Positions 12,412 to 48,752 of a stretch of DNA of 57,402 bases are shown here, one piece after another. The DNA is taken from positions 1 through 57,402 of IMG/VR virus record IMGVR_UViG_3300033150_001005. One strand, given 5' to 3'. The position numbers were made by a program, and so were the translations under genes. This stretch comes from a virus. The notes beneath the pieces are model-generated. The model did not search any database. It was not told the DNA's origin and saw nothing but the letters and a program-made list of their open reading frames with translations. The number at the start of each line of letters is the position of its first letter. Position 1 is the first letter of the stretch.

Positions 12412-12737
12412 CAGGCTTGCCTCTCAACACAGTAGAGCCGCAGTTCACCTTCCCTTCGGCGAGAGTCGTCAACGGCCTCAATGTCGAACGTTTTGCTCTT
12501 CCATACCGCCCGCATCTTCGGCGTGACGCCGGAGCGGTAGCGCATCCGGATTCGCCAATTCAGCATTGAGTTGATGCTCGTGCGGTCTAATAGCTCGGTG
12601 CCCCGCAGGAATGTAACCTGAGCCGGAACCGACGAGTACAGCGTGCTCCAAGTGCTCGTGACCTCACCGGTAGCCCCCTGGCTTTCGGTCGGCTTCTCAA
12701 TGTCCACGTGCTCAGATAGGAATGCTGCGAGATTCAT
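12411..12737 (-). CDS. Head closure protein (SPP1 gp16-like head-tail joining)
   Basis: 108 residues: HVDIEKPTESQGATGEVTST, WSTLYSSVPAQVTFLRGTEL, WRIRMRYRSGVTPKMRAVWK, FDIEAVDDSRRREGELRLYC. This is the Phage_H_T_join pattern. It seals the DNA-filled head and docks the tail. In most HK97-like phages it directly follows the gp6/gp8-like connector; here nine glycan-type genes separate them. Confidence 0.87.
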   Translation of the reverse strand: MNLAAFLSEHVDIEKPTESQGATGEVTSTWSTLYSSVPAQVTFLRGTELLDRTSINSMLNWRIRMRYRSGVTPKMRAVWKSKTFDIEAVDDSRRREGELRLYCVERQA

Positions 12738-13597
12738 GCCACTCCAAACAAATCAAGCCCGGCGAATTTGCTTCGCCCATGCTCCGCTACCAATCGGCGC
12801 ACCTCCGCTTCCTGCCAAGGCTCTCGGTCAACATGCAGATGGCGTAGCAGCTCGAGGTACGGCTGCCACCAGTCCAGCGGCACCGGCGCTGTCCGCAGTC
12901 CTGTTTCATCCGGCGCCATTGAGTACAGCCGATCAATCAGCCCCACATCGCGGTCTGGCCACCGAAGCCGCTCATTGACCTTGTAGAGCGCGTGCTTGGC
13001 GACCAGCCGCCGGCGGCTCACGAATTGCAAATGCATCAGCCCGCCATCACGCCCCCGAACCGGAATTGCCGCAATCCGCGAGCCGAACGGCGCACGGGCA
13101 TGATGATCATAGCCCTCATGGGTGCGCCAACAGACCTTCCCGTCATCCCGGAACGCAACGCAGCATCGCTGCTGAAACTGGATGCCGAACGCGCTGGGGT
13201 CTGACCGATACTGGTCAATACTGCCCCACAAGCACGGCAGGGGCGTCACCAGTACGCCGGCGGGCGTTAGCTCTTCGATCCAACGGCGTACCCGTGGTAA
13301 GAGGTTGCCCGTCAACACCTCATCGGCGTCGATGGTCGCAATGTGCGTAGCGCCCGCAGATCGGGCCGTCTCCAGAAGGCGCTGCCGATGGGCCATCTCG
13401 TGCCAAACAGGATCATTCTCCTCGATGATCTGAACTCGCCCTGTTTCCTTGGCAATCTCGGCGAGAATCGCTGCCGTCTTATCGGTCGAGCAATGGTTCA
13501 GCACCACCGCCGCGTCGCACCACATCAGTAGCGCCCGCAACGACAATCCCAGCACCCAGTCCTCGTTGCGGACCGGCATGACCGCTACCAGCTTCAT
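12734..13597 (-). CDS. Family 2-type glycosyltransferase
   Basis: 287 residues, GT-A fold. N-terminus KLVAVMPVRNEDWVLGLSLR and AVVLNHCSTDKTAAILAEIA is a nucleotide-sugar binding start; THIATIDADEVL supplies the metal-binding DxD; a QRCCVAFRDDGKVCWRTHEG region follows. It probably transfers a sugar from a nucleotide-sugar donor. No membrane segment, so cytoplasmic. It overlaps the head-closure start by four bases, so it is co-translated with virion genes. Substrate unknown: capsid or tail protein, a glycan intermediate or DNA are all possible. Confidence 0.85.
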   Translation of the reverse strand: MKLVAVMPVRNEDWVLGLSLRALLMWCDAAVVLNHCSTDKTAAILAEIAKETGRVQIIEENDPVWHEMAHRQRLLETARSAGATHIATIDADEVLTGNLLPRVRRWIEELTPAGVLVTPLPCLWGSIDQYRSDPSAFGIQFQQRCCVAFRDDGKVCWRTHEGYDHHARAPFGSRIAAIPVRGRDGGLMHLQFVSRRRLVAKHALYKVNERLRWPDRDVGLIDRLYSMAPDETGLRTAPVPLDWWQPYLELLRHLHVDREPWQEAEVRRLVAEHGRSKFAGLDLFGVA

Positions 13598-14106
13598 GCG
13601 AGATATTTACGGTTTCCATCCCTGGGTGCTAGCTTGCGCGCCCACCCCTGCCAGTCAAAACGTTGCGGGTCCAATCCCAAAAGTCGAATGATCCACGCTA
13701 GATATTCCGCCCCCTCTTCGGCCAGCCCTTCGTAACTGACGAATTGGACGGGCCCCCTCCAGGCCGCCAGATCCGCCCACATCTGCTCCGATGCTCGCCG
13801 GCGATCAGCGCGACTTGGATCAACGTCAAAGAATCCGCGCCGCACATTTGACCGCGTTGAACATGTCCGGTCCCGCATCGCCACGAGGACCGGCGCCGTC
13901 TTGTCGGTGATGCTTCGGCAGTCGCTGTATTCTCTGCCGGGCTCCCCGTATTCGATCAGCCGCAAGTAGGGCGACCCCCGCCAGTCAACCGGATAACTCT
14001 GATGCAAGACGCGCGAGATGTCCGGATGGTAGCCCAGGGTCCAAGTCAACCATTGGCTGCCGCTGCCCTCGTGTCCGAGTACGCAGACGACCTCAATACG
14101 CCCCAT
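13594..14106 (-). CDS. Sulfotransferase-like P-loop protein
   Basis: About 170 residues from MGRIEVVCVLGHEGSGSQWL. The GHEGSGSQWLTWTL segment is a PAPS-type 5'-phosphosulfate loop (P-loop variant, GxxGSGS), and SYEGLAEEGAEYLAWIIRLL plus LDPQRFDWQGWARK fit the C-terminal half of small sulfotransferases. VLVAMRDRTCSTRSN could be the 3'-phosphate binding segment. Could also be a divergent nucleotide kinase. The start overlaps the upstream gene by 14 bases. Confidence 0.6.
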   Translation of the reverse strand: MGRIEVVCVLGHEGSGSQWLTWTLGYHPDISRVLHQSYPVDWRGSPYLRLIEYGEPGREYSDCRSITDKTAPVLVAMRDRTCSTRSNVRRGFFDVDPSRADRRRASEQMWADLAAWRGPVQFVSYEGLAEEGAEYLAWIIRLLGLDPQRFDWQGWARKLAPRDGNRKYLA

Positions 14107-14761
14107 CAACAATGAGCAATGTATCCGCCGTCTCACCGCCGCGATAGGCGATGATCTTTGGCGGGTCGGTCAGCTTCCACCCGTGCCGCCACACCAGCAC
14201 CCCGAGCGCCGTCTGATCATGCCGGTGCCCCCGGACCCGCGGATCATTACTTGCTTCCCCGTTGCGATTGGTCCATGGGCCGCGAAACGCCGTACCGTCC
14301 ATCGCAAGCTGGAACCACTCGCGGAATAGCCCCATAGCATCAGGATCAGCGAGGTTCAGCCCGAACGCAGTGGCAACCGGATGGGGAATCCCCCAGCTTT
14401 GCTCCCTTGTAATCCCTAGCGGCTTTAAGGCGCTGTCCGCGCACCATTCGCCGGTGGTGAAGCCGTTGTTCGAGACCCAGTAGCCATTGCGTTCAATGCA
14501 CTCAAATAGTGGATCGAGCGGCCTGGCTGGCAACACGGAAGCATCGGCCCATAGCACTACGCTCGCACCGCGCCTCCAGGCATCCGCGATAGCAAATGCC
14601 TTGAAAGCATAGGGTGTTTCCTGGTGCGATGGGCTGCCTGGCGGCCATTGGTCGCGGAAGAACGCCCGCATTCCGTCGAAACCTACAGCATCCAGCGCCC
14701 GGCGTAAGCGCTCCTGCCCGCGCACAAAACGCCCCGTCGCCACATTTACGACAGCTCTCAT
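14093..14761 (-). CDS. GT-A-like glycosyltransferase
   Basis: 222 residues. YAFKAFAIADAWRRGASVVL followed by WADASVLPARPLDPLF looks like the donor-binding core with a DxS in place of DxD. The end, HRHDQTALGVLVWRHGWKL, resembles the catalytic/aspartate-Gln segment of GT8-like or DUF-type glycosyltransferases that act on small glycans. No transmembrane segment. Assignment is by motif style and by its neighbours, which are all sugar- or methyl-transfer genes. Confidence 0.6.
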   Translation of the reverse strand: MRAVVNVATGRFVRGQERLRRALDAVGFDGMRAFFRDQWPPGSPSHQETPYAFKAFAIADAWRRGASVVLWADASVLPARPLDPLFECIERNGYWVSNNGFTTGEWCADSALKPLGITREQSWGIPHPVATAFGLNLADPDAMGLFREWFQLAMDGTAFRGPWTNRNGEASNDPRVRGHRHDQTALGVLVWRHGWKLTDPPKIIAYRGGETADTLLIVDGAY

Positions 14762-15339
14762 TGCCCCAGAATCAAATTTGTGCTATTGACGTCCAGCACG
14801 CGGTAGTCATACTTCCGCGCCCGCTCCGTGGCCTCGACAATGCGGTTATCATGCTCGACACAGATCAGCGACGGCTGCGCATGCGCCAGCAGGACAAACA
14901 ACAAGTCAACGGATGTGCCTTCCGTGTCGATATTGACAAAATCCGCGCCGCCGAATTGGTTCAGGATGTCGCCCCACGTTACCGTCGGACAATAGAACTG
15001 CCCCGTGTACTTCGTCGCCTTGCGCCAGGTCTCGTAATGATCCGGCTGCGACGTGCTAACGGCGTCGGGCGTGTTATAAAAGTAGATCAGTCCACGATCA
15101 ATCGCCAGCGCCGCATGGATCAACGTCATCTTCGGGTTGGCACCGTGGGTTTTCAGCAGCCCCAACATTCCCTCCAATGAGGGTTCCAGCAGCAGCCCCG
15201 ACCATCCGCGCTCCGCCAGCGCATACGTGTTCGAGAATGTCTTCCCGTCCCAAGCCCCCACGTCGATGAAGCGACCATCCGTCTTATCCCCGAAATACTG
15301 GAGAATCACTGCCTCCTCGCCAAACTGCGAGTACATCAA
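14758..15339 (-). CDS. FkbM-family methyltransferase
   Basis: 193 residues. SQFGEEAVILQYFG, GRFIDVGAWDGKTFSNTYAL (SAM-binding motif I, DVGAxDG), GLLLEPS, then ADFVNIDTEGTSVDLLFVLL (NIDTEG is the FkbM hallmark) and LICVEHDNR. FkbM enzymes commonly O-methylate sugars in glycan clusters. Four-base overlaps on both sides. Likely substrate: a sugar laid down by the neighbouring glycosyltransferases (inference). Confidence 0.9.
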   Translation of the reverse strand: MMYSQFGEEAVILQYFGDKTDGRFIDVGAWDGKTFSNTYALAERGWSGLLLEPSLEGMLGLLKTHGANPKMTLIHAALAIDRGLIYFYNTPDAVSTSQPDHYETWRKATKYTGQFYCPTVTWGDILNQFGGADFVNIDTEGTSVDLLFVLLAHAQPSLICVEHDNRIVEATERARKYDYRVLDVNSTNLILGQ

Positions 15340-16043
15340 GCCTCCTTCTCTAACGGGAGCATCTGCGCCATTTGCCGCCGGGCATTCACAAAGTCCAGCC
15401 GTGGATCGGGCTGATGGTTCGGCGGCTCAAACGCTCCGCGCCAGCACACACACAGCATGTGCGGCGTGTTGTAGACGCGGAACCGGAAGCCGCAGTCAAT
15501 CAGGTACTTAGCGGCCTTCCATGTCGGGCTTGCACTGAAATCGTGAATCACCACGGCTCCCGGCGTCAGCAACAGCCGCTCGGCCCCGATCGCGTCATTC
15601 AGCGGTGCCGGCGGCTCATGATCGCCGTCAATCACCACGCCGCAGAATTGTTTCCGCTCAACCGTGTCGAAGAATTCCTCGGACGTCCCCGCGAAGAGCG
15701 AAACATCCTCCAGCACGTTCACGTTAGCCAGATTCTCCTCGGTGCGCGCCCGGAACTTATGGTCCGCGTACATCGGATCTACCGCTACAACCGCGTCGCT
15801 CGCCGCTGCGAGATGAGCCGCCGTCCAGCCTGTATGACCGCCAATGTCCAGCCAAGTCCCCCAGAGCTGCGAGGCAATGTGATACAGGATCGCCGCTTCA
15901 TCATGCGTGAAAAAGCCGCAATCGGGAAAATGTTCCCGGTCGCTGATCACGTCATGCCCGCGCGAATGGGGCATTGGGCGCGAGATCGTATGCCTGAAGA
16001 ACGGTTGGAGATCCGGCGCATTCAGGTTCGAGCGATAGATCAT
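15336..16043 (-). CDS. Class I SAM-dependent methyltransferase
   Basis: About 235 residues from MIYRSNLNAP; the ATG overlaps the stop of the sulfotransferase-like gene (ATGA). WGTWLDIGGHTGWTAAHLAA is motif I, DAVVAVDPMY motif II, CGVVIDGDHEPPAPLNDAIG and LTPGAVVIHDF complete a Methyltransf_24-like core. The IDGDH...HDF pattern is common in sugar O-methyltransferases that bind a metal. Cytoplasmic. Probably modifies the same glycan as the FkbM enzyme. Confidence 0.85.
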   Translation of the reverse strand: MIYRSNLNAPDLQPFFRHTISRPMPHSRGHDVISDREHFPDCGFFTHDEAAILYHIASQLWGTWLDIGGHTGWTAAHLAAASDAVVAVDPMYADHKFRARTEENLANVNVLEDVSLFAGTSEEFFDTVERKQFCGVVIDGDHEPPAPLNDAIGAERLLLTPGAVVIHDFSASPTWKAAKYLIDCGFRFRVYNTPHMLCVCWRGAFEPPNHQPDPRLDFVNARRQMAQMLPLEKEA

Positions 16044-16621
16044 GCGTTGTATCCCAGCAGCCCGAAGTCCTGCCAAGAGTGCCGGCGCACCGCTGTCCGG
16101 AACTCCGCGCCAAAATCGTAGTCTGTCCGGTGAATCGTCGCGCCAACAATTGGCAACGGGTGCCACTTGCAAACGAAAGGCAATGCCTGAAGATCCGCCT
16201 TAAGCCGTTCGTATCCAATGAGTTGTATCTGCTCATAGGGCACCGTCGCCCGCTGAAGCGTCGTAGTCAGCGGCGCCCAATTGGCCCTGTCGCTGTGCTC
16301 CGCGCACCAGTCCACGAATTCCGCCGGCGTCATATCCGCCCTCATGCCCTGCTGCGCCCACCCCCGCCCCTCATCCGTGTTGGCAAGGTAACCGGTGCTC
16401 CAAAATTCCTGTTTCATCAACCGGTAAAGGCTCGCTAGCCGAGAGTAGGGGTTCCGGACAACGGCAAATACCAACTTCTTGCGATACCCTGGCGGAATCT
16501 CAACGGAGTGATGATCACCGCCCGGATTGACCCCGGAGTAATAGTCCCGCAACCAGTGATCAATCGCCCGGCTCGCTGTCCGCGGCATCGCCAGGAACAC
16601 ATACTCCGGCCCGATCACCAT
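16040..16621 (-). CDS. Sulfotransferase family protein
   Basis: 193 residues. YVFLAMPRTASRAIDHWL is the 5'-phosphosulfate-binding loop (PRTASR) and KLVFAVVRNPYSRLASLYRL the 3'-phosphate-binding motif (RNPYSRxxS), both at the right spacing for the PAPS-dependent carbohydrate sulfotransferase family (Sulfotransfer_2). It would transfer sulfate from PAPS to a hydroxyl, usually of a sugar. Phage-encoded sulfotransferases are rare. Confidence 0.83.
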   Translation of the reverse strand: MVIGPEYVFLAMPRTASRAIDHWLRDYYSGVNPGGDHHSVEIPPGYRKKLVFAVVRNPYSRLASLYRLMKQEFWSTGYLANTDEGRGWAQQGMRADMTPAEFVDWCAEHSDRANWAPLTTTLQRATVPYEQIQLIGYERLKADLQALPFVCKWHPLPIVGATIHRTDYDFGAEFRTAVRRHSWQDFGLLGYNA

Positions 16622-19548: not shown

Positions 19549-19575
19549 GGTTGATTCTCCGAAAGAAGGGGAAGG

Positions 19576-19677
19576 AGAGGCGCTCGCTGTGCTTGGTGCT
19601 CTCGACTACTTTGGCTCGCTCCAGCGGTTTGGTGCTCTCTTGATGTATGGCTCGCCTTACGGTTTGAGCGCCTCTCC
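19576..19677. repeat. Array 2 of alternating 10-bp cores with exact 18-bp period
   Basis: On the plus strand 10-bp cores TGGTGCTCTC (19594, 19630) and TGGCTCGCTC (19612; variant TGGCTCGCCT at 19648) alternate, each separated by a different 8-bp spacer. The outer positions (AGAGGCGCTC at 19576 and GAGCGCCTCT at 19666) are degenerate units that form a perfect 12-bp inverted repeat, GGAGAGGCGCTC / GAGCGCCTCTCC, around the array. It fills the gap between the capsid stop and the next gene. The same motif pair and period occur in array 1 at 46932-47121. Confidence 0.9.
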
Positions 19678-19691
19678 CTTTATTTTAGCGC

Positions 19692-20903
19692 CTAAAAGCT
19701 GGACGCGTAAATTACAGCATCGCTCCGATAGGTGGTGAGCGCCAGCCGCTCTTCGGCTCGGATCGCCACGAGGTTCTTAGTGAAATAATCCGAGTGCTCG
19801 GTGCTGATTACCACCTGAGCCTGCTGACGGTCCCAGAGCGCAACGTGGGTAGCAAAAGCGCCCACAAGCGCAGTGCCAGCGGTCATTGCGGTAGTCGTCG
19901 CTACTGGCAGTCCCCACAGGGTAGGCTCAGCAACACCCTGCGGCCCGCCAAGCAGATACCGGCCAGTGCCCGCGGCGCGCTCCTCCGTCTTCAAGGTCTG
20001 AATCAATCGCCAATCGGTAGGGTGCATCACGACACCGGTAGCCGTCAGGTTCGCAGCCTCGATCTGTTCGATCATCCGGGCAACCTTATCGATCTTAGTA
20101 TCGTTGGTTTGCCCATATGTGGAGCTATCGTAGGCCGTCGCCTCATTGGTCAAGCCGCTGAGGTTTTGCCCCGTGGCATCGCCGGACAGGATCTGTTTGT
20201 CTTCCTCGTCCATCAGGCCGTCGATGAGCCGCTGGTTAATATAGGCTTGCAAACCCTGGAAGTCATCCAGGATTTGCCGGGATGCCGGAATCCAGTGTGC
20301 GATGGTGCGAACGTTCTCGTAATCGATCGTAAAAGTGAGCGCGGATTCCTCCTTGGCCGAAGCCTCGACCTGCGGCGAAGCGTTGCTCGTGAAGACGTTC
20401 TCCTTCACGAATTCCACCGCATTATTGCTCGTGGTGAATCGCGGAATCAGATCCCGCATACGGTTGCGCCGCACGCCCGGCTTGACGATTCCCGGCACGC
20501 GTGCAGGTACCAGAATGCCCGGCGTCGAGCTACCGACCGCCGAACTCGTGATCGTGGTCTTGAAATCCCCCGGAAAGAACGTCTTGACCGGCACCTCCAG
20601 CGAAATACCGCGGATGTGACCATCACTCCGAACGTGCCCAGCGAACTCCTTGAAGGCATCGTTCTCGATGATCACCTCACCAATGGACCTCGTTTCAGCG
20701 ACAGTGTTCGGCGCGATGTTGCGCTGTTGTGCCGCCTCAAGTTCATCCAGGCGGCGCAAAGCCCTTTCCGCCTTTTCCAATGCCGGCTTGGCCGGTGCAC
20801 CCAGCGCCTTCAGCTCCTCGTAGTGCTGCTTCCACATCTCGCGCTGGGCTTCAATTGCTTGCATGACGTCATTCTTGACGTCTTCCAACGTATGTTCAGG
20901 CAT
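19692..20903 (-). CDS. Major capsid protein (HK97 fold)
   Basis: 403 residues. The N-terminal ~75 are helical and charged (VKNDVMQAIEAQREMWKQHY), matching the delta scaffolding domain removed by the protease. The HK97 body starts near GSSTPGILVPARVPGIVKPG, with VEFVKENVFTSNASPQVEAS, TIAHWIPASRQILDDFQGLQ and TGVVMHPTDWRLIQTLK. Strong RBS (GAGGAGGG). It follows the protease gene by 10 bases. Confidence 0.96.
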   Translation of the reverse strand: MPEHTLEDVKNDVMQAIEAQREMWKQHYEELKALGAPAKPALEKAERALRRLDELEAAQQRNIAPNTVAETRSIGEVIIENDAFKEFAGHVRSDGHIRGISLEVPVKTFFPGDFKTTITSSAVGSSTPGILVPARVPGIVKPGVRRNRMRDLIPRFTTSNNAVEFVKENVFTSNASPQVEASAKEESALTFTIDYENVRTIAHWIPASRQILDDFQGLQAYINQRLIDGLMDEEDKQILSGDATGQNLSGLTNEATAYDSSTYGQTNDTKIDKVARMIEQIEAANLTATGVVMHPTDWRLIQTLKTEERAAGTGRYLLGGPQGVAEPTLWGLPVATTTAMTAGTALVGAFATHVALWDRQQAQVVISTEHSDYFTKNLVAIRAEERLALTTYRSDAVIYASSF

Positions 20904-33468: not shown

Positions 33469-34794
33469 CTAGTCATCCCTATCATCCTCTAGCCTCAGAT
33501 ATCGCGGCTGGAATAGCAGTTTCGCCGCGCCTATCGGCCCGTTGCGTTGCTTCTCCACGCTGATCCGCGTTGGCACAGGATTCCCCGCCTCCATTGCCTC
33601 CTCGCGTGCTTTCCGCCGCTGCCAGATCACCAGAACAATATCGGCATCCTGCTCAATTGTCCCGCTCTCCCGGAGCATTGACAGCGATGGCGGCTTCTCG
33701 TCTTCATCTTGGTAGCGCCGGATTTGCGACAGTGCAATGACGGGAATTTGATGCTCGGCCGCCAACAGCTTCAGGTCCCGCGTCATCTGCGAGACCTCCT
33801 GCACCCGGTTTTCGGTCCGGTCGGCACCGCGGAGCAATTGCAGGTAGTCGATCACCATGTAGTCCGCCCGCCGCCCCGCGGCCTTGTGTCGCTGGAGCGC
33901 CGCGTGCAGCGAAAGAACCGTCCGGCTGGGCTGGTCCGAAACGTAGACCGGGAGCTCGGCAAGCTCTCGCGCAGCTTCCGCAACTTCTCGCCGCTCCAGG
34001 TTGCTTAGCCGGCCCTTGCGCCAGTGCTGCATACTGACTTGCGCCGCCGCTGCGATCATCCGCCGCCAGATCTCGGCCTTGCCCATCTCCAGCGACGCAA
34101 GTAGCCCGTGTCGCCCACATTTCCCGGCGTAGTGGCAGATGGCACCAGCGACAGCGCTTTTGCCGTGCGATGGTCGCCCAGCGATGATCACTAGTTCGCC
34201 ACGCCGAAACCCACCACCAAGAATCGCATTCAGATGCTGCCAGGGAAGCGGGAGCACCGGCTTCATCCGCGCCGGATTGAGGAAGTCCTCAAGTGGCGAC
34301 TCACGCTCCAGGTATTCCGTGAGCGATAAGAAATCCCCATCCGTCCGCTTGCCGCCAATGCCCCGGAGCTGCTGCTCGGCCCGTTCAAGCAGTTCCGTTG
34401 CCGTTCCGGCCCCTTCCGCTGCTTCGTTGGCTATCGCACGTGCCGCGTGGATGAGCCGCCGGCGCATCGCCGCCTCTTGGACGGTCCGGATGTATGATTC
34501 CAGGCCATACAACTGCGGCAACCCGTCATCCAGGCTCACCAGGTAGCTCAGTCCGTCGATTCTGCGGAGGTCGCCCGTCTCCTCCAGCCGATGCGCCAGC
34601 GTCACCCGGTCCACCGATTGCCCCTGCGCGTGCAGTTCCCGCATCGCCGTGAAAATAAGCTGGTGCTTGCGGAGCGAGAAATCGAGCGGTTGAAGTGAGG
34701 AAAGCATAGCAAGGAGGGCCTTGGCGTCGGTCATCGCGGCGCCGAGGATCAGCCGCTCAATATCGACCGCCGCCGGGAGCGTAGCCGCCGCCAT
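33469..34794 (-). CDS. dnaB: Replicative DNA helicase, DnaB family
   Basis: 441 residues, usual DnaB length. N-terminal domain DIERLILGAAMTDAKALLAM and DFSLRKHQLIFTAMRELHAQ; linker helix; RecA core with Walker A IIAGRPSHGKSAVAGA, Walker B YMVIDYLQLLRG, then PVIALSQIRRYQDEDEKPP and LRESGTIEQDADIVLVIWQR. Unwinds DNA at the phage fork. It follows the initiator and one small gene, the lambda O-P style layout. Last gene of the early minus-strand operon. Confidence 0.95.
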   Translation of the reverse strand: MAAATLPAAVDIERLILGAAMTDAKALLAMLSSLQPLDFSLRKHQLIFTAMRELHAQGQSVDRVTLAHRLEETGDLRRIDGLSYLVSLDDGLPQLYGLESYIRTVQEAAMRRRLIHAARAIANEAAEGAGTATELLERAEQQLRGIGGKRTDGDFLSLTEYLERESPLEDFLNPARMKPVLPLPWQHLNAILGGGFRRGELVIIAGRPSHGKSAVAGAICHYAGKCGRHGLLASLEMGKAEIWRRMIAAAAQVSMQHWRKGRLSNLERREVAEAARELAELPVYVSDQPSRTVLSLHAALQRHKAAGRRADYMVIDYLQLLRGADRTENRVQEVSQMTRDLKLLAAEHQIPVIALSQIRRYQDEDEKPPSLSMLRESGTIEQDADIVLVIWQRRKAREEAMEAGNPVPTRISVEKQRNGPIGAAKLLFQPRYLRLEDDRDD

Positions 34795-35004
34795 TTAGTC
34801 ACCCTTCAGCCAGCGTCGGAACCGCCCTCTTGACTTGTTGTCCGGATCATGCCAACTTACGCCGTAGATCCGCCGGCTGAAATCGCCCCAAAGTTTCTCT
34901 ATCTCTCGACGGTTGAGACCGCAGCATTCCGGGACGTACCAGTCAAGCCACTGCACGTCGAGCTCGTGTATCGGGTTAGCTACGTCATTCCTTGCTTTCG
35001 TCAT
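34795..35004 (-). CDS. Small protein between initiator and helicase
   Basis: 69 residues from MTKARNDVANPIHELDVQWL; the ATG lies inside the last codons of the initiator (20-base overlap). Trp-rich (DWYVPECCGLNRREIEKLWG). By position it could be a helicase-loading or accessory protein, but no family is recognised. Confidence 0.6.
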   Translation of the reverse strand: MTKARNDVANPIHELDVQWLDWYVPECCGLNRREIEKLWGDFSRRIYGVSWHDPDNKSRGRFRRWLKGD

Positions 35005-35968
35005 ACAGCCTCCCGAATGGATCTTCCGGCTCCGGAATTTTGTCCAGATCGCGCTTTTCCCGGAGCCACCGGTGCAACGCTGGCCAGTAGCGCGGCTCAA
35101 TGCCTTCGGCTAAGACGTGCTCCACCCATGCCTCGTGCCGTTTGTCAATCCGGGCTGCAGCTTCCGAATGCTGCGAATCGGGGAACTCACTCAATCTCTC
35201 TGCCCATGCTTGCTCAGCGAGAATTCGGCCGTCCTTCTTCGCGTGGCGTTCGTAGATCCGCTCAAATCTCTTCAAGCGATCTTCAGACACACACACCTCT
35301 GAGTCTTGCCGCGTTCCGCCAGACGGTGTTACCGTTACGATACGTTCGGTGTGTGTTGGCTCTGGCTTAGGCTCTGGCTCTGGTAGTAGAGTTTCTGTTG
35401 AATTTCTGTTGAATTTCTGTTGAATATCGGGGTTAACCACCAATGTTTTGTTAGACTTAGCCGATACACCGCGTATTGTGTGGCGCTGGTCTGTTGGGTT
35501 TCCGTTGAATCTTCGTTGAATCTTCGTTGAGTCTCTGTTGAGTTTCTGTTGAATTTCCGTTGAGTTTCTGTTGAGTTTCTGTACTGGTCTGCCGCGCGAT
35601 GGGTGGCGTGGATCGGAACCGTCCCACCATGTCAGCCCAGCCCGAGAGAGCGCGGTACGCCAAGTATTGTCCGCGTGCTCGGCAACGTCATGGATAACCA
35701 GCCGATGCGGCTCCGGCGCCGAGTCTACCCAACCCGTCTCAATGAGCAACTCGATCAGCTTGCCTTTCTCGCCAGTCCAGCCCAGCGCCGTCTCGATGAC
35801 GGCATCCGGCCACTTCCCGATGTCGCCCTGGATGGCGTACTTCGACGCCCAATGCCACAGTGACTCTAATATCCCTACAGCTAGCGTCTTGGGCATTCCT
35901 AGACCCGCCTCGCTGAGCCGATCAGCGAGCAGTTGGATCTTAGGGTGTTCAGGGGTTCCGCGTTTCAT
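34985..35968 (-). CDS. Replication initiator (lambda O-like) containing iterons
   Basis: About 327 residues from MKRGTPEHPKIQLLADRLSE (a TTG four codons earlier is possible). Residues ~1-120 look like a winged-helix DNA-binding domain (ESLWHWASKYAIQGDIGKWP, AVIETALGWTGEKGKLIELL). Residues ~130-195 are asparagine/glutamine/threonine-rich, repeating QKLNRNSTEIQ-like units because the underlying DNA is a tandem 11-bp repeat. The C-terminal third is helical and charged, plausibly the helicase-recruiting part. Role as initiator inferred from the iterons and adjacent DnaB. Confidence 0.75.
   Translation of the reverse strand: MKRGTPEHPKIQLLADRLSEAGLGMPKTLAVGILESLWHWASKYAIQGDIGKWPDAVIETALGWTGEKGKLIELLIETGWVDSAPEPHRLVIHDVAEHADNTWRTALSRAGLTWWDGSDPRHPSRGRPVQKLNRNSTEIQQKLNRDSTKIQRRFNGNPTDQRHTIRGVSAKSNKTLVVNPDIQQKFNRNSTETLLPEPEPKPEPTHTERIVTVTPSGGTRQDSEVCVSEDRLKRFERIYERHAKKDGRILAEQAWAERLSEFPDSQHSEAAARIDKRHEAWVEHVLAEGIEPRYWPALHRWLREKRDLDKIPEPEDPFGRLYDESKE
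35395..35427. repeat. Iteron block A (three 11-bp units)
   Basis: Three tandem units, CTGTTGAATTT, CTGTTGAATTT, CTGTTGAATAT (plus strand), inside the initiator gene. Same consensus as block B, 63 bp away. Part of the likely origin. Confidence 0.88.
35428..35490. other. Spacer between iteron blocks, candidate unwinding region
   Basis: 63 bp between the two iteron blocks containing GGTTAACC (a perfect 8-bp palindrome) and the T-rich stretch CAATGTTTTGTTAGAC. It is AT-richer than the surrounding gene. Possible melting site; coding for the initiator as well. Confidence 0.4.
35491..35578. repeat. Iteron block B (eight 11-bp units)
   Basis: Eight exact-length tandem units on the plus strand with consensus YYGTTGARTYT: starting at 35491, 35502, 35513, 35524, 35535, 35546, 35557 and 35568. 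The 11-bp step is close to one helical turn, so bound initiators would stack on one face. Located within the initiator gene, as the iterons of lambda ori lie within gene O. Confidence 0.92.
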
Positions 35969-35980
35969 GGTCCGTCTCAA

Positions 35981-40209: not shown

Positions 40210-40264
40210 TGGCAGGCGCGGCAGGACTCGAACCTGCGACCCTCGGCTTAGAAGGCCGATGCTC
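40210..40264 (-). other. attP core: 3' 55 nt of tRNA-Arg (anticodon TCT)
   Basis: On the minus strand this reads as the 3' part of a tRNA: D-stem 3' side GAGC, anticodon arm TCGGC-CTTCTAA-GCCGA (anticodon TCT, Arg), T arm GCAGG-TTCGAGT-CCTGC, acceptor strand CGCGCCT, discriminator G, CCA. The 5' acceptor and D-arm half are missing. It lies 22 bases downstream of the integrase stop. This is the usual form of an attP that regenerates the host tRNA gene on integration. Attachment into a host tRNA-Arg(UCU) gene is inferred. Confidence 0.88.
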
Positions 40265-40286
40265 GCAAATTCCGTGGTAACGCATG

Positions 40287-41486
40287 TCACTGAATGCTTT
40301 GGACTTGCCCGCCAGCATCCTCATCGCATGTATCAAATGCACCACAAAACCATCCCAATTCGCCCAGAATCGCCTCCGGAATCGCCCGGCGCCGCTCCAC
40401 GTCTTGGACGCTGTAGTACAACGTCATGCTCGCGTCACGATGCCCCATCGTCCGCTGCCGATCTTCCAACGGAATCCCTGGAATCTGGCCGGCTAGCGCC
40501 GAGTGTGCACGCCGAAAGCCGTACCACGTCACCGGGAATCCGAGCGTGTCGGCTAGCTTGCGGAATTGCCGGTTGGCGATGTTGTGCGAGTCAACCGGGG
40601 TTCCCCGGCGGCTCTGGAACAGCGGCGCCTCCGGGTCCTGGCGCTTGGAACGTTCAACCAGCGCCGCCAGCATCCCGGCCAGCTCCGGCGTCAAGCCCTC
40701 GATCCGTTCCCTGGCCGATGTCTTCAAGCTGCCATACTCGCCGCGGTAGTAATTCTCGCGGACGGCTACTGAGTAGGGCGCTAGCATGATTCCGTCCACC
40801 TGCACAGGTTGGGGCGTGAAGTTGCAATTCCGCAGACGGAGTCCACACAATTCCGCCGGCCCCATCGAAGTAGCTACCGATAAAAGTGCCATCTCGCGTG
40901 CTGGCGGCGTGAGCCGTAAGAGCACCAGGCGCAATTGTTCCACCGTGTACGTAGGGCGCCGCTCGTGCCGCACCGCGGGCAAGCTCACCAACCGTGCCGG
41001 ATTCTCCGCCTGGTACAATCGCAGTCTCCGCGCGTGCTCAAAGATGGCGGACAGGCAGTGCTTCGCGTGCAACACCGTCTGCACACTGTAGCCTCGCTCG
41101 AATAGCTGCCGCACAATGCCCTCAATGGTGCCCGCGTCCACATCTGACAGCCTGCACCCGCCCACCAGCGGTTCCAGCATCCGCCACCGGGTGGCATAGT
41201 GCGTTCGCCCGGCCTTTTTCAGCCGCCACACCACCTGTGGCTCAAATTGCGACGCCCAAAACTCGCTGAGTGTCGTGCTGCTGGAGGGGCGGCAGTTGCG
41301 GAGATTGATAGCCGCCATGAACTCTCGGCGCTTCCGCTCGGCCTCCCGGACGCCGACATCTTTCTTGGAACCGATGTACTCGTACCGCCACCTCCAATTC
41401 CCTTCCGCGTCGTACTCCCGGTATTGCACCGTCCAGGTGCTGCGAGACTTCACCCATCTACCCTTCTGACTTCTCGGTCGTGCCAT
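40287..41486 (-). CDS. int: Tyrosine recombinase (integrase)
   Basis: 399 residues from MARPRSQKGRWVKSRSTWTV; an in-frame ATG 17 codons earlier is less likely. N-terminal arm-binding region, core-binding helices (QFEPQVVWRLKKAGRTHYAT), then a catalytic domain. Visible catalytic parts: lysine in GSLKTSARERIEGL, arginine II in WYGFRRAHSALAGQ, MGHRDASMTLYYS with the nucleophile Tyr. The first catalytic arginine position (SMGPAELCGL, normally TGxRxxEL) is Gly, and the usual His of HxxR is Tyr. So it is a divergent clade, or RI is supplied elsewhere. Gene end adjoins attP. Confidence 0.9.
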   Translation of the reverse strand: MARPRSQKGRWVKSRSTWTVQYREYDAEGNWRWRYEYIGSKKDVGVREAERKRREFMAAINLRNCRPSSSTTLSEFWASQFEPQVVWRLKKAGRTHYATRWRMLEPLVGGCRLSDVDAGTIEGIVRQLFERGYSVQTVLHAKHCLSAIFEHARRLRLYQAENPARLVSLPAVRHERRPTYTVEQLRLVLLRLTPPAREMALLSVATSMGPAELCGLRLRNCNFTPQPVQVDGIMLAPYSVAVRENYYRGEYGSLKTSARERIEGLTPELAGMLAALVERSKRQDPEAPLFQSRRGTPVDSHNIANRQFRKLADTLGFPVTWYGFRRAHSALAGQIPGIPLEDRQRTMGHRDASMTLYYSVQDVERRRAIPEAILGELGWFCGAFDTCDEDAGGQVQSIQ

Positions 41487-41533
41487 CGTTGCCTCCATGG
41501 GCATTGTGGCACAAACGGGATTGGGCATCATTC

Positions 41534-41776
41534 TCATCTCAGCGCTTCAGATTCGAGCCGCGGCTCCGCCATCTGTTCGTTGTGCACCTCACGTAAGCCG
41601 AGCTGGCTAGATTCACCAGCCACAGCCATCAGACCCTCAACGCTGAAGCCGTGATGGCGGCACAGACGCCAGGCAGCTTTAGGCTGATTATATGGCGGGA
41701 GGGCTAACGCGGAAATAGCCATTGCGAACCCCTGATAGAAGCCCCGCTCCCAATCGCTCAGCTTTTTTCGTGCCAT
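41534..41776 (-). CDS. Small unknown protein
   Basis: 80 residues: RKKLSDWERGFYQGFAMAIS, then AWRLCRHHGFSVEGLMAVAG. It resembles small phage proteins with one amphipathic helix. Co-oriented with integrase and 47 bases upstream of its likely start. Confidence 0.6.
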   Translation of the reverse strand: MARKKLSDWERGFYQGFAMAISALALPPYNQPKAAWRLCRHHGFSVEGLMAVAGESSQLGLREVHNEQMAEPRLESEALR

Positions 41777-46712: not shown

Positions 46713-46931
46713 CTATTCACGTCGTAATCCTTGATTTTGGTCCGCCCATCTTTCGCAGACCCCCCTCGCCAACTCATCAACCATGTCCCGCAGCTTATCC
46801 AGAGCCGCCATTGCCACGACAACACGGTCGGCTATCTTTCCGAGGTCATTATTAAGCGCCTTAAGTTGGTTCAGGATCGCTGCGGATTGGTGCAACTCCT
46901 TCACTGTTTGCTCGTCGTTAAATGCGGTCAT
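46713..46931 (-). CDS. Small helical protein directly behind array 1
   Basis: 72 residues from MTAFNDEQTVKELHQSAAIL; helical coiled-coil (LNQLKALNNDLGKIADRVVV, LDKLRDMVDELARGV). Its ATG abuts the first core of the 18-bp repeat array, whose last spacer and core supply the Shine-Dalgarno (GGAGGAG). The frame is open through the array (Arg-x-Pro...Ser-Glu-Pro repeats) but the strong RBS supports this start. First gene of the early operon after the array. Confidence 0.65.
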   Translation of the reverse strand: MTAFNDEQTVKELHQSAAILNQLKALNNDLGKIADRVVVAMAALDKLRDMVDELARGVCERWADQNQGLRRE

Positions 46932-47121
46932 TTGTTCGCTCCTCCCGGTTGGCGCTCTCAACCTATATGGCTCGCTCTTACCTCCTGGCACTCTCTGTTT
47001 CACTGGCTCGCTCGCGTGGCTTGGTGTTCTCTCGTCGTTTGGCTCGCTCCCCCTATTTGGTGCTCTCGGCAAGGTTGGCTCGCTCAGGTTTTTTGGTGCT
47101 CTCGCCGCCGCTGGCTTGATG
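46932..47121. repeat. Array 1 of alternating 10-bp cores with exact 18-bp period
   Basis: Eleven cores at exact 18-bp steps from 46932 to 47112. Plus-strand cores TGGCTCGCTC (46968, 47004, 47040, 47076) alternate with TGGYRYTCTC forms (46950, 46986, 47022, 47058, 47094); the end units are degenerate (TTGTTCGCTC, TGGCTTGATG). The 8-bp spacers are all different. It fills the space between a terminator and the early gene start. Same design as array 2 (19576-19677), 27 kb away. Confidence 0.92.
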
Positions 47122-47126
47122 CTTTC

Positions 47127-47161
47127 GCAAAAAGCGGGGAGCAGCGCCGCCACCGCTCCCC
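47127..47161 (-). terminator. Rho-independent-like terminator
   Basis: On the minus strand GGGGAGC (47161-47155) pairs with GCTCCCC (47142-47136), loop 12, followed by GCTTTTTGC (47135-47127). It closes the small-gene operon that ends at 47187, just before array 1. Confidence 0.65.
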
Positions 47162-47186
47162 GGATCGCAGGAGGGAGGAAAAGGCA

Positions 47187-48231: not shown

Positions 48232-48557
48232 GCAGCCTCCTCTTCAAGATCCCGCCGCGTGGCATTCACGTGCGAGATGGTGTTCATGATGCCATTGCGC
48301 CACCGGCTGTTCTCGACGAGCAGTCGGCGGAAGAATTGATTGACAACAACCTCCACCACGAGCACGGGAACACCAACGGTGTCCGACACTTCCTGCGGAA
48401 TGTGCTTCTGGACGGTTCCCTGATGGAGCAGTCTTGCGGCGTGCCCCTCGATGAGATCGTGGAGGGGGCGAGAAATCCTTGCAGAATCATAGATTTGCGC
48501 CCGCCCGGCTGGCTTTCTCGGGGCTTTCGGGGCATGATTGGAGCTATGATTGCTCAT
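48228..48557 (-). CDS. Unknown protein following the RHH regulator
   Basis: 109 residues; SDTVGVPVLVVEVVVNQFFR, RLLVENSRWRNGIMNTISHV, NATRRDLEEEAA. Four-base overlap with the RHH regulator; probably functions with it (operon partner). Not recognised. Confidence 0.6.
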   Translation of the reverse strand: MSNHSSNHAPKAPRKPAGRAQIYDSARISRPLHDLIEGHAARLLHQGTVQKHIPQEVSDTVGVPVLVVEVVVNQFFRRLLVENSRWRNGIMNTISHVNATRRDLEEEAA

Positions 48558-48745
48558 GACTTTTTGATCCTCGCATCAGCATCCAGCTTTGCCGCGATCG
48601 CCTCGGCGACGTAGCGGCGCAATTCAATCCCCCGGAGCGCAGCCGCGGCCTTTGCTCTGCGGTGAAGATCCTCGGGGATATCAATGCTGATGCGCTTGAG
48701 CTTTGATAGCTCTGAGATCTGTGATATGCTGCCTGCGTGTGGCAT
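48554..48745 (-). CDS. Ribbon-helix-helix regulator
   Basis: 63 residues. LKRISIDIPEDLHRRAKAAA, ALRGIELRRYVAEAIAAKLD is an Arc/CopG-type RHH fold: beta strand (KRISIDI) then two helices. It starts at or next to the transcription start, so the messenger may be leaderless. By position it is the early repressor/regulator and may bind the TTTGGACA repeats in its own promoter. Confidence 0.8.
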   Translation of the reverse strand: MPHAGSISQISELSKLKRISIDIPEDLHRRAKAAAALRGIELRRYVAEAIAAKLDADARIKKS

Positions 48746-48752
48746 CAATTAC

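Follow-up and report, generated by a model that had tools for sequence, protein, structure and literature searches.

The data showed that the DNA analyzed here, a stretch of 57,402 nt which is called the window below, almost certainly contains two TIGR (tandem interspaced guide RNA) arrays, both read from the minus strand, and that the guides of the shorter one, Array 2, are very probably directed against the major capsid genes of other phages. The window has TIGR arrays, while it does not have a complete TIGR-Tas system. The identity and orientation of the arrays, the absence of a tas gene, the conservation of Array 2 with exchange of its spacers, and the capsid matches are the parts of this account that can be read directly from the sequences compared.

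TIGR arrays were described as two alternating repeats of 8–12 nt with spacers of about 9 nt, giving 36-nt RNAs and truncated at both edges (PMC12045711). In the SpTIGR array of a Salicola phage the spacers are 8 nt long and the total spacer is 16 nt, and in the structure of TasR one 36-nt guide is bound by a Tas dimer via a pair of half-types (PMC12045711). A rho-independent terminator after the array was called "typical," not defining, and the natural targets and the purpose of TIGR-Tas were left open in this 2025 description (PMC12045711).

In the region of Array 1, cores of two types alternate in 18-bp steps without exception, with 8-nt spacers that are all different. The pattern TGGN4CTC-N8-TGGN4CTC, allowing at most one mismatch, was found 11 times in the window versus 0.4 expected, and none of the shuffled sequences gave 11 matches. 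This count bears out the alternating cores, strict 18-bp period, and unique 8-bp spacers which had been noticed in an earlier, sequence-only reading of this DNA; of the eleven cores that it counted, nine are complete (46950–47103), while the outer two are truncated copies, shortened forms of the TGGCTCGCTC type. When read on the minus strand, which is also the reading direction of the neighboring genes, each 36-nt unit consists of an edge repeat, an 8-nt spacer A, a loop repeat GAGAGYRCCA, and an 8-nt spacer B. The edge has a single form, GAGCGAGCCA, and the loops are GAGAGCACCA (twice), GAGAACACCA, GAGAGTGCCA, and GAGAGCGCCA. Hence, the window has two alternating repeats of 10 nt each (GAGCGAGCCA and GAGAGYRCCA or GAGAACACCA), unique spacers with the length known from SpTIGR, a 36-nt unit, and truncated edges in both arrays, as in the published TIGR arrays, while the adjacent Tas (Nop-domain) gene is missing. 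The 36-bp pair of two half-types, which the earlier reading had suggested as a possible binding unit for a dimer, corresponds to the pair through which the TasR dimer binds its 36-nt guide (PMC12045711).

The 3′-truncated edge of Array 1 together with spacer B5 likely forms the Shine–Dalgarno sequence GGGAGGAG of the 72-aa gene that follows. Because a terminator-like hairpin is located just 5′ of Array 1, its transcription would need read-through or a local promoter. The typical terminator 3′ of the array was not found, the only one being on the 5′ side. The predicted fold of the Array 1 RNA gave a z score of +0.65, and an Rfam search of the window returned tRNAs only and no other family.

To place the arrays among known systems, the skeleton TGGN4CTC-N8, repeated three times, was scanned in viral contigs, which gave at least 120 stretches. 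Many of the stretches listed hold long alternating arrays with unique spacers. Loss of the 18-bp period in relatives would have spoken against the earlier reading, but dozens of other phages retain it. A protein family of about 270 aa, corresponding to PHROG 4285, is encoded in 66 array loci among the matches listed. The profile of this array-linked family matched two Tas proteins of solved structure, TasH at E 7e-56 and TasR at E 5e-41; IS110-type transposases were matched weakly. Among the matches listed, the GAG..CCA reading was on the same strand as the tas gene in 164 of 165 arrays. Between the TasH protein of phage CGphi29 and the protein encoded next to the array in locus L059, the identity is 47.5% over 99%, and the CGphi29 array has the edge AAGCGAGCCA, the loop AAGACAACCA, 8-nt spacers, and 11 guides. 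The assignment of the window arrays to TIGR, and their orientation, rest on the agreement of the repeats, the spacers, the truncated ends, the co-orientation with Tas, and the likeness to CGphi29.

A CRISPR array, which the earlier reading had already discounted, is ruled out by two 10-nt repeats with 8-nt spacers instead of a single repeat of 25–36 nt with spacers of similar size. That reading was also right that this is not a simple tandem repeat, as two repeats alternate and the spacers are unique. Translation of the stretch as a repeat protein, which it had named as a possible refutation, is ruled out as well, because stops close all three sense frames in 12 of the 27 long arrays that relatives have among the matches listed.

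Several other loci with unusual gene arrangements were observed. The 709-aa Tas protein of L101 (102–2231, minus strand) has an apparent mid-protein intein, with splicing-like motifs recognized by eye at both ends of the insert. In an Acidobacteriota MAG, a 474-aa protein (L134, 366–1790, plus strand) joins a Tas-like N-terminal part to an apparent ParB-like domain; in the published work, tasParB and tasA are distinct genes of one operon (PMC12045711). In a MAG in which no tas was detected, a gene fusion of ParB-like and DNA-methyltransferase parts (L131, 3306–5009, plus strand) is located close to a TIGR array.

The second, shorter array has the same repeats and lies between the major capsid gene and the next gene (Table 1); it had been missed in the earlier reading. 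Its 8-nt spacers are all different, the steps are 18 nt, and the edges are truncated at both ends. The array is enclosed by an inverted repeat that can pair as a 14-bp stem, and as this stem has no T tract, it does not represent a rho-independent terminator. Despite the 14-bp stem, the overall fold of Array 2 is ordinary (z −1.0). In two sibling contigs, L179 and L180, Array 2 occupies the corresponding position; its repeats and the enclosing inverted repeat are kept, and its spacers differ. The terminase and the capsid protein of the window phage are 98% and 96% identical to those of L179, and 77% and 78% identical to those of L180. Both siblings are fragments of 12–14 kb, which could carry tas elsewhere, and no sibling contigs spanning Array 1 were found. 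In the virion gene region of the window, genes of a glycosyltransferase and of FkbM-type and other methyltransferases were also observed (12734–16172).

Table 1. Positions of the arrays, of their flanking features, and of the capsid gene sites matched by Array 2 guides in the window
Feature	Position	Strand	Description
TIGR Array 1	46932..47121	-	5 tigRNA units with 5 loops and 4 full edges; the edges at both ends are truncated
5′-truncated edge repeat, Array 1	47112..47121	-	catcAAGCCA
3′-truncated edge repeat, Array 1	46932..46941	-	GAGCGAacaa, runs into ATG 46929–46931
72-aa gene	46713..46931	-	Without family match; directly 3′ of Array 1
Intrinsic-terminator-like hairpin	47135..47162	-	Directly 5′ of Array 1
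TIGR Array 2	19580..19657	-	2 tigRNA units: TACATCAA/AACCGCTG and AAGTAGTC/AGCACAGC
Inverted repeat around Array 2, right arm	19574..19585	.	GGAGAGGCGCTC; overlaps 3′-truncated edge GAGCGC
Inverted repeat around Array 2, left arm	19666..19678	.	GAGCGCCTCTCCC on the plus strand
Major capsid (major head) protein gene	19692..20903	-	Directly 5′ of Array 2; PHROG 10, E 1.4e-63; matches annotated major capsid proteins
Capsid site S1 (YINQRL)	20227..20243	-	L179 guide 1 exact, 16/16; own guide 1 with 3 mismatches
Capsid site S2 (EHSDYF)	19783..19798	-	Own guide 2 with 5 mismatches here, exact in 9 other phages
Capsid site S3 (YDSSTY)	20116..20132	-	L180 guide 1 with 2 mismatches in the window and 3 in its own phage, L180

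The ends of the window form an exact direct repeat of 114 bp, and the phage genome is therefore taken as complete. The genes for integrase, terminase, portal, protease, capsid, tape measure, and DnaB point to a temperate tailed phage. The integrase gene (40287–41537) ends directly at a tRNA-Arg (tct) gene (40210–40287), which is possibly the attachment region. At 35392–35582, inside a putative replication initiation gene (34985–35980, minus strand) located by dnaB (33469–34794), there are runs of 11-bp direct repeats, TTTCTGTTGAA and TCTGTTGAGTT, in about 3 and about 8.5 copies, which resemble origin iterons within a lambda O-like gene.

Three kinds of searches did not detect Tas in the window. 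The family HMM used with filters off gave a best E value of 5.5, an alignment search returned nothing at E values up to 10, and hhalign of all ORFs of at least 110 aa gave a best probability of 2%, as compared with 100% for four divergent Tas proteins used as positives. Because the genome is complete and has no tas, the guides, if they are used, would have to be used by a Tas protein acting in trans. Among the matches listed, the pair of GAGCGAGCCA and GAGAGCACCA was found beside genes of the TasA type, which lack a nuclease, in 25 of the 66 tas loci, while HNH-type tas loci use the edge AAGCGAGCCA. Judging from these repeats, the likeliest partner would be TasA acting in trans. Since the exact repeat pair is otherwise found beside nuclease-less TasA genes, binding or blocking of the target is preferred over its cutting. 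When one candidate host phylum was searched for a donor of Tas in a sample of 396 genomes, a single genome with Tas was found, which was already known. The relatives of the terminase and capsid proteins in the sampled genomes were at most about 30% and about 47% identical, respectively, and synteny with the array phages L039 and L138 was negligible. Other array contigs of 29–89 kb without tas were also observed, none of the 10 checked having terminal repeats, so that they may be incomplete. Four of the records without tas and without terminal repeats (L027, L046, L098, and L102, in G010, G014, G028, and G030, respectively; 50–89 kb) have arrays that reach about 22 units.

In TIGR systems, spacer A pairs with one strand of the target DNA and spacer B with the other, at adjacent places between which a gap of 0–2 is tolerated, and the cut is made 5′ to the base that pairs with spacer base 5, which gives 8-nt 3′ overhangs (PMC12045711). 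From the published cut sites and the 3′ overhangs, we derived the target geometry as A + 0–2 nt + rc(B). The capsid matches of Array 2 read as A + 0 or 1 nt + rc(B), while none of the six guides from the three phages gave matches in the other three arrangements. Guide 1 of the window phage has one mismatch at the orthologous capsid site of L179 versus three in its own gene, and guide 2 has one mismatch in the L179 capsid gene versus five in its own. Guide 2 also matches exactly (16/16) the orthologous capsid site in L309, L317, L319, L320, L325, L329, L337, L339, and L343; these capsid genes were gathered via conserved peptides and hence were selected for TEHSDYF.

Codon compatibility with the capsid peptides YINQRL, EHSDYF, or YDSSTY was seen in five of the six guides of Array 2. 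In the controls, it was seen in 69 of 20,000 shuffled spacers and in 4 of 1,310 real pairs of spacers taken from other phages (about 0.3%). The exception is guide 2 of L179, whose best capsid match has two mismatches; it seems to represent this EHSDYF site as well, with two residues altered. The differences between the guides and the phages' own capsid genes are mostly synonymous. For example, guide 2 of L180 reads [G]AA CAT TCG GAC TAC TT and guide 2 of the window phage reads [G]AG CAC AGC GAC TAC TT, both of which encode EHSDYF, while in the window capsid gene this peptide is encoded by [G]AG CAC TCG GAT TAT TTC. All six guides have three to six mismatches, out of 16, at their own site. A sibling is matched better than the phage itself by four of the six, there is one tie at four mismatches, and guide 2 of L179 fits none of the three phages. 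The own-site mismatches miss the two TasR seed positions, as we infer them. None of the seven guides of Arrays 1 and 2 has a self-target in the window at one mismatch or less. Taken from the sequence matches, these data argue strongly that the targets of Array 2 are capsid genes of other phages.

The 17 stretches in viral contigs that match guide w2.1 exactly include none in capsid genes recognizable by tblastn. For the Array 1 guides, no convincing target was found in the window or in the viral contigs. Exact matches in the viral contigs were found for w1.3 (23 stretches) and w1.4 (13 stretches), mostly in unrelated genes, and the excess of w1.3 matches at gap 1 is explained by the common in-frame peptide ND[DE]AWL. 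Among the arrays of other phages, the targets in their own contigs were at the control level given by edge-centered pairs and wrong geometries, there was no excess of tas genes as targets, and the search for targeting between sibling pairs gave nothing. The 11 CGphi29 guides matched the CGphi29 genome at chance level. The pattern of capsid targets was found in one phage family.

Four other explanations were weighed. The arrays could act on their own genome, with the Tas–guide complex binding the mismatched sites in the phage's own capsid gene and tuning late expression. The position of Array 2 directly 3′ of the capsid gene and the homology of its guides to that gene are consistent with this explanation. 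On the other hand, if such autoregulation were under selection, the guides should track their own gene, while all six have three to six mismatches there and four of them fit another sibling better, which makes autoregulation improbable. We give about the same small weight to the arrays being functionless relics of a phage that has lost tas. A complete genome without tas would be expected from such a history, but a relic would first gather mutations in its repeats, and the repeats of Array 2 are intact in three phages whose capsid proteins diverge by at most about 22%. The inverted repeat around the array is also kept, and the changed spacers are still codon-compatible with capsid genes.

It is slightly less probable still that the phage encodes a Tas protein too divergent for the profiles, so that the window would contain an ordinary TIGR-Tas locus with unlinked parts. 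Several window proteins of 200–470 aa have no family match and could be candidates, but the profile reaches as far as TasH, TasR, and IS110 transposases, divergent Tas proteins scored 100% in hhalign versus at most 2% for the window ORFs, and in relatives tas usually adjoins the arrays. The earlier reading had proposed a site array for a phage regulator or partition protein, and a DNA operator, iteron, or partition-site array would explain the regular spacing, the intergenic place, and the nearby gene of an RHH-type repressor (48554–48748). We consider it very improbable, as the spacers are unique, two repeats alternate, the ends are truncated, and the 18-bp step is not a whole number of helical turns. 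Moreover, the arrays are co-oriented with Tas genes in relatives, they are near-identical to the experimentally processed array of CGphi29, and the guides have target matches. Hence, judged by its repeats, period, truncated ends, and the association with Tas in relatives, the sequence favors a guide array over an operator, iteron, or partition array. What had been suggested as a possible new regulatory element matches a system that was already described in 2025.

The comparison with the published systems showed both likeness and differences. As in the TIGR-TasH system of CGphi29 (PMC12045711), the spacers are 8 nt and the unit 36 nt long, the repeats end in CCA, and one array, here Array 2, lies 3′ of the major head protein gene; in CGphi29 (L393, 11895–17815), tasH and the array were observed directly 3′ of the annotated major head protein gene. 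In contrast, CGphi29 has tasH directly before an array of 11 guides, while the window has arrays of five and two guides and no tas. The edge repeats, AAGCGAGCCA in CGphi29 and GAGCGAGCCA in the window, differ by an A-to-G change at repeat position 1; among the matches listed, this change accompanies TasA and not TasH loci. The same pair of GAGCGAGCCA and GAGAGCACCA is found in the dual-repeat TIGR-TasA arrays, some of which have tasParB (PMC12045711; loci L007–L138). These loci have an adjacent effector gene, while the window is a complete genome without an effector. While the published TIGR work names no natural targets (PMC12045711), targets of Array 2 are proposed here; no later papers on natural TIGR targets were found in a literature search.

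The arrangement in the window also resembles the mini-CRISPR arrays of the viruses SPV1 and SPV2, described in 2019, which are short and effector-less, occupy the same place in siblings with different spacers, and show reciprocal targeting of siblings, with the own site mutated and the target near the array (PMC6858448). The absence of an effector, the targeting of siblings by each other, and the mutated self site were all found here, with the siblings read as fragments. The window differs from SPV1 and SPV2 (PMC6858448) in that it has TIGR arrays with split guides of 8 + 8 nt, both strands of the target DNA would be paired, there is no known adaptation machinery, and the targets are capsid codons.

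These observations suggest how the arrays might work. Array 2 would be transcribed with the late genes and Array 1 with the early genes, and both transcripts would be processed into 36-nt dual-spacer guide RNAs. The guides could then be loaded on a Tas protein from another replicon, such as a co-resident prophage, another phage, or the host. When a sibling or a more distant phage enters the cell, the loaded Tas might bind to its capsid gene and block it, while the phage's own capsid gene would escape through its mostly synonymous differences. The arrays would in this way serve as a device of superinfection exclusion or of competition between phages, a TIGR counterpart of the virus-borne mini-CRISPR. 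We regard as likely the joint proposal of minus-strand TIGR arrays that use a Tas in trans, by binding rather than cutting, with Array 2 directed against rival capsids for exclusion. When taken separately, the exclusion of competitors by Array 2 through a Tas in trans is the function towards which we lean, with somewhat less assurance.

The TIGR targets of Array 2 appear readable from sequence, namely as protein-conserved sites in the major capsid genes of sibling and unrelated phages. A complete phage that has guides and no effector separates the array from the Tas gene, as mini-CRISPR did for CRISPR. With moderate confidence, we propose that temperate phages with tas-less mini-TIGR arrays may borrow a foreign Tas, and that their changing guides against capsid codons may exclude rivals. 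If this is true, TIGR guides would for the first time have natural targets assigned to them, together with a function in nature.
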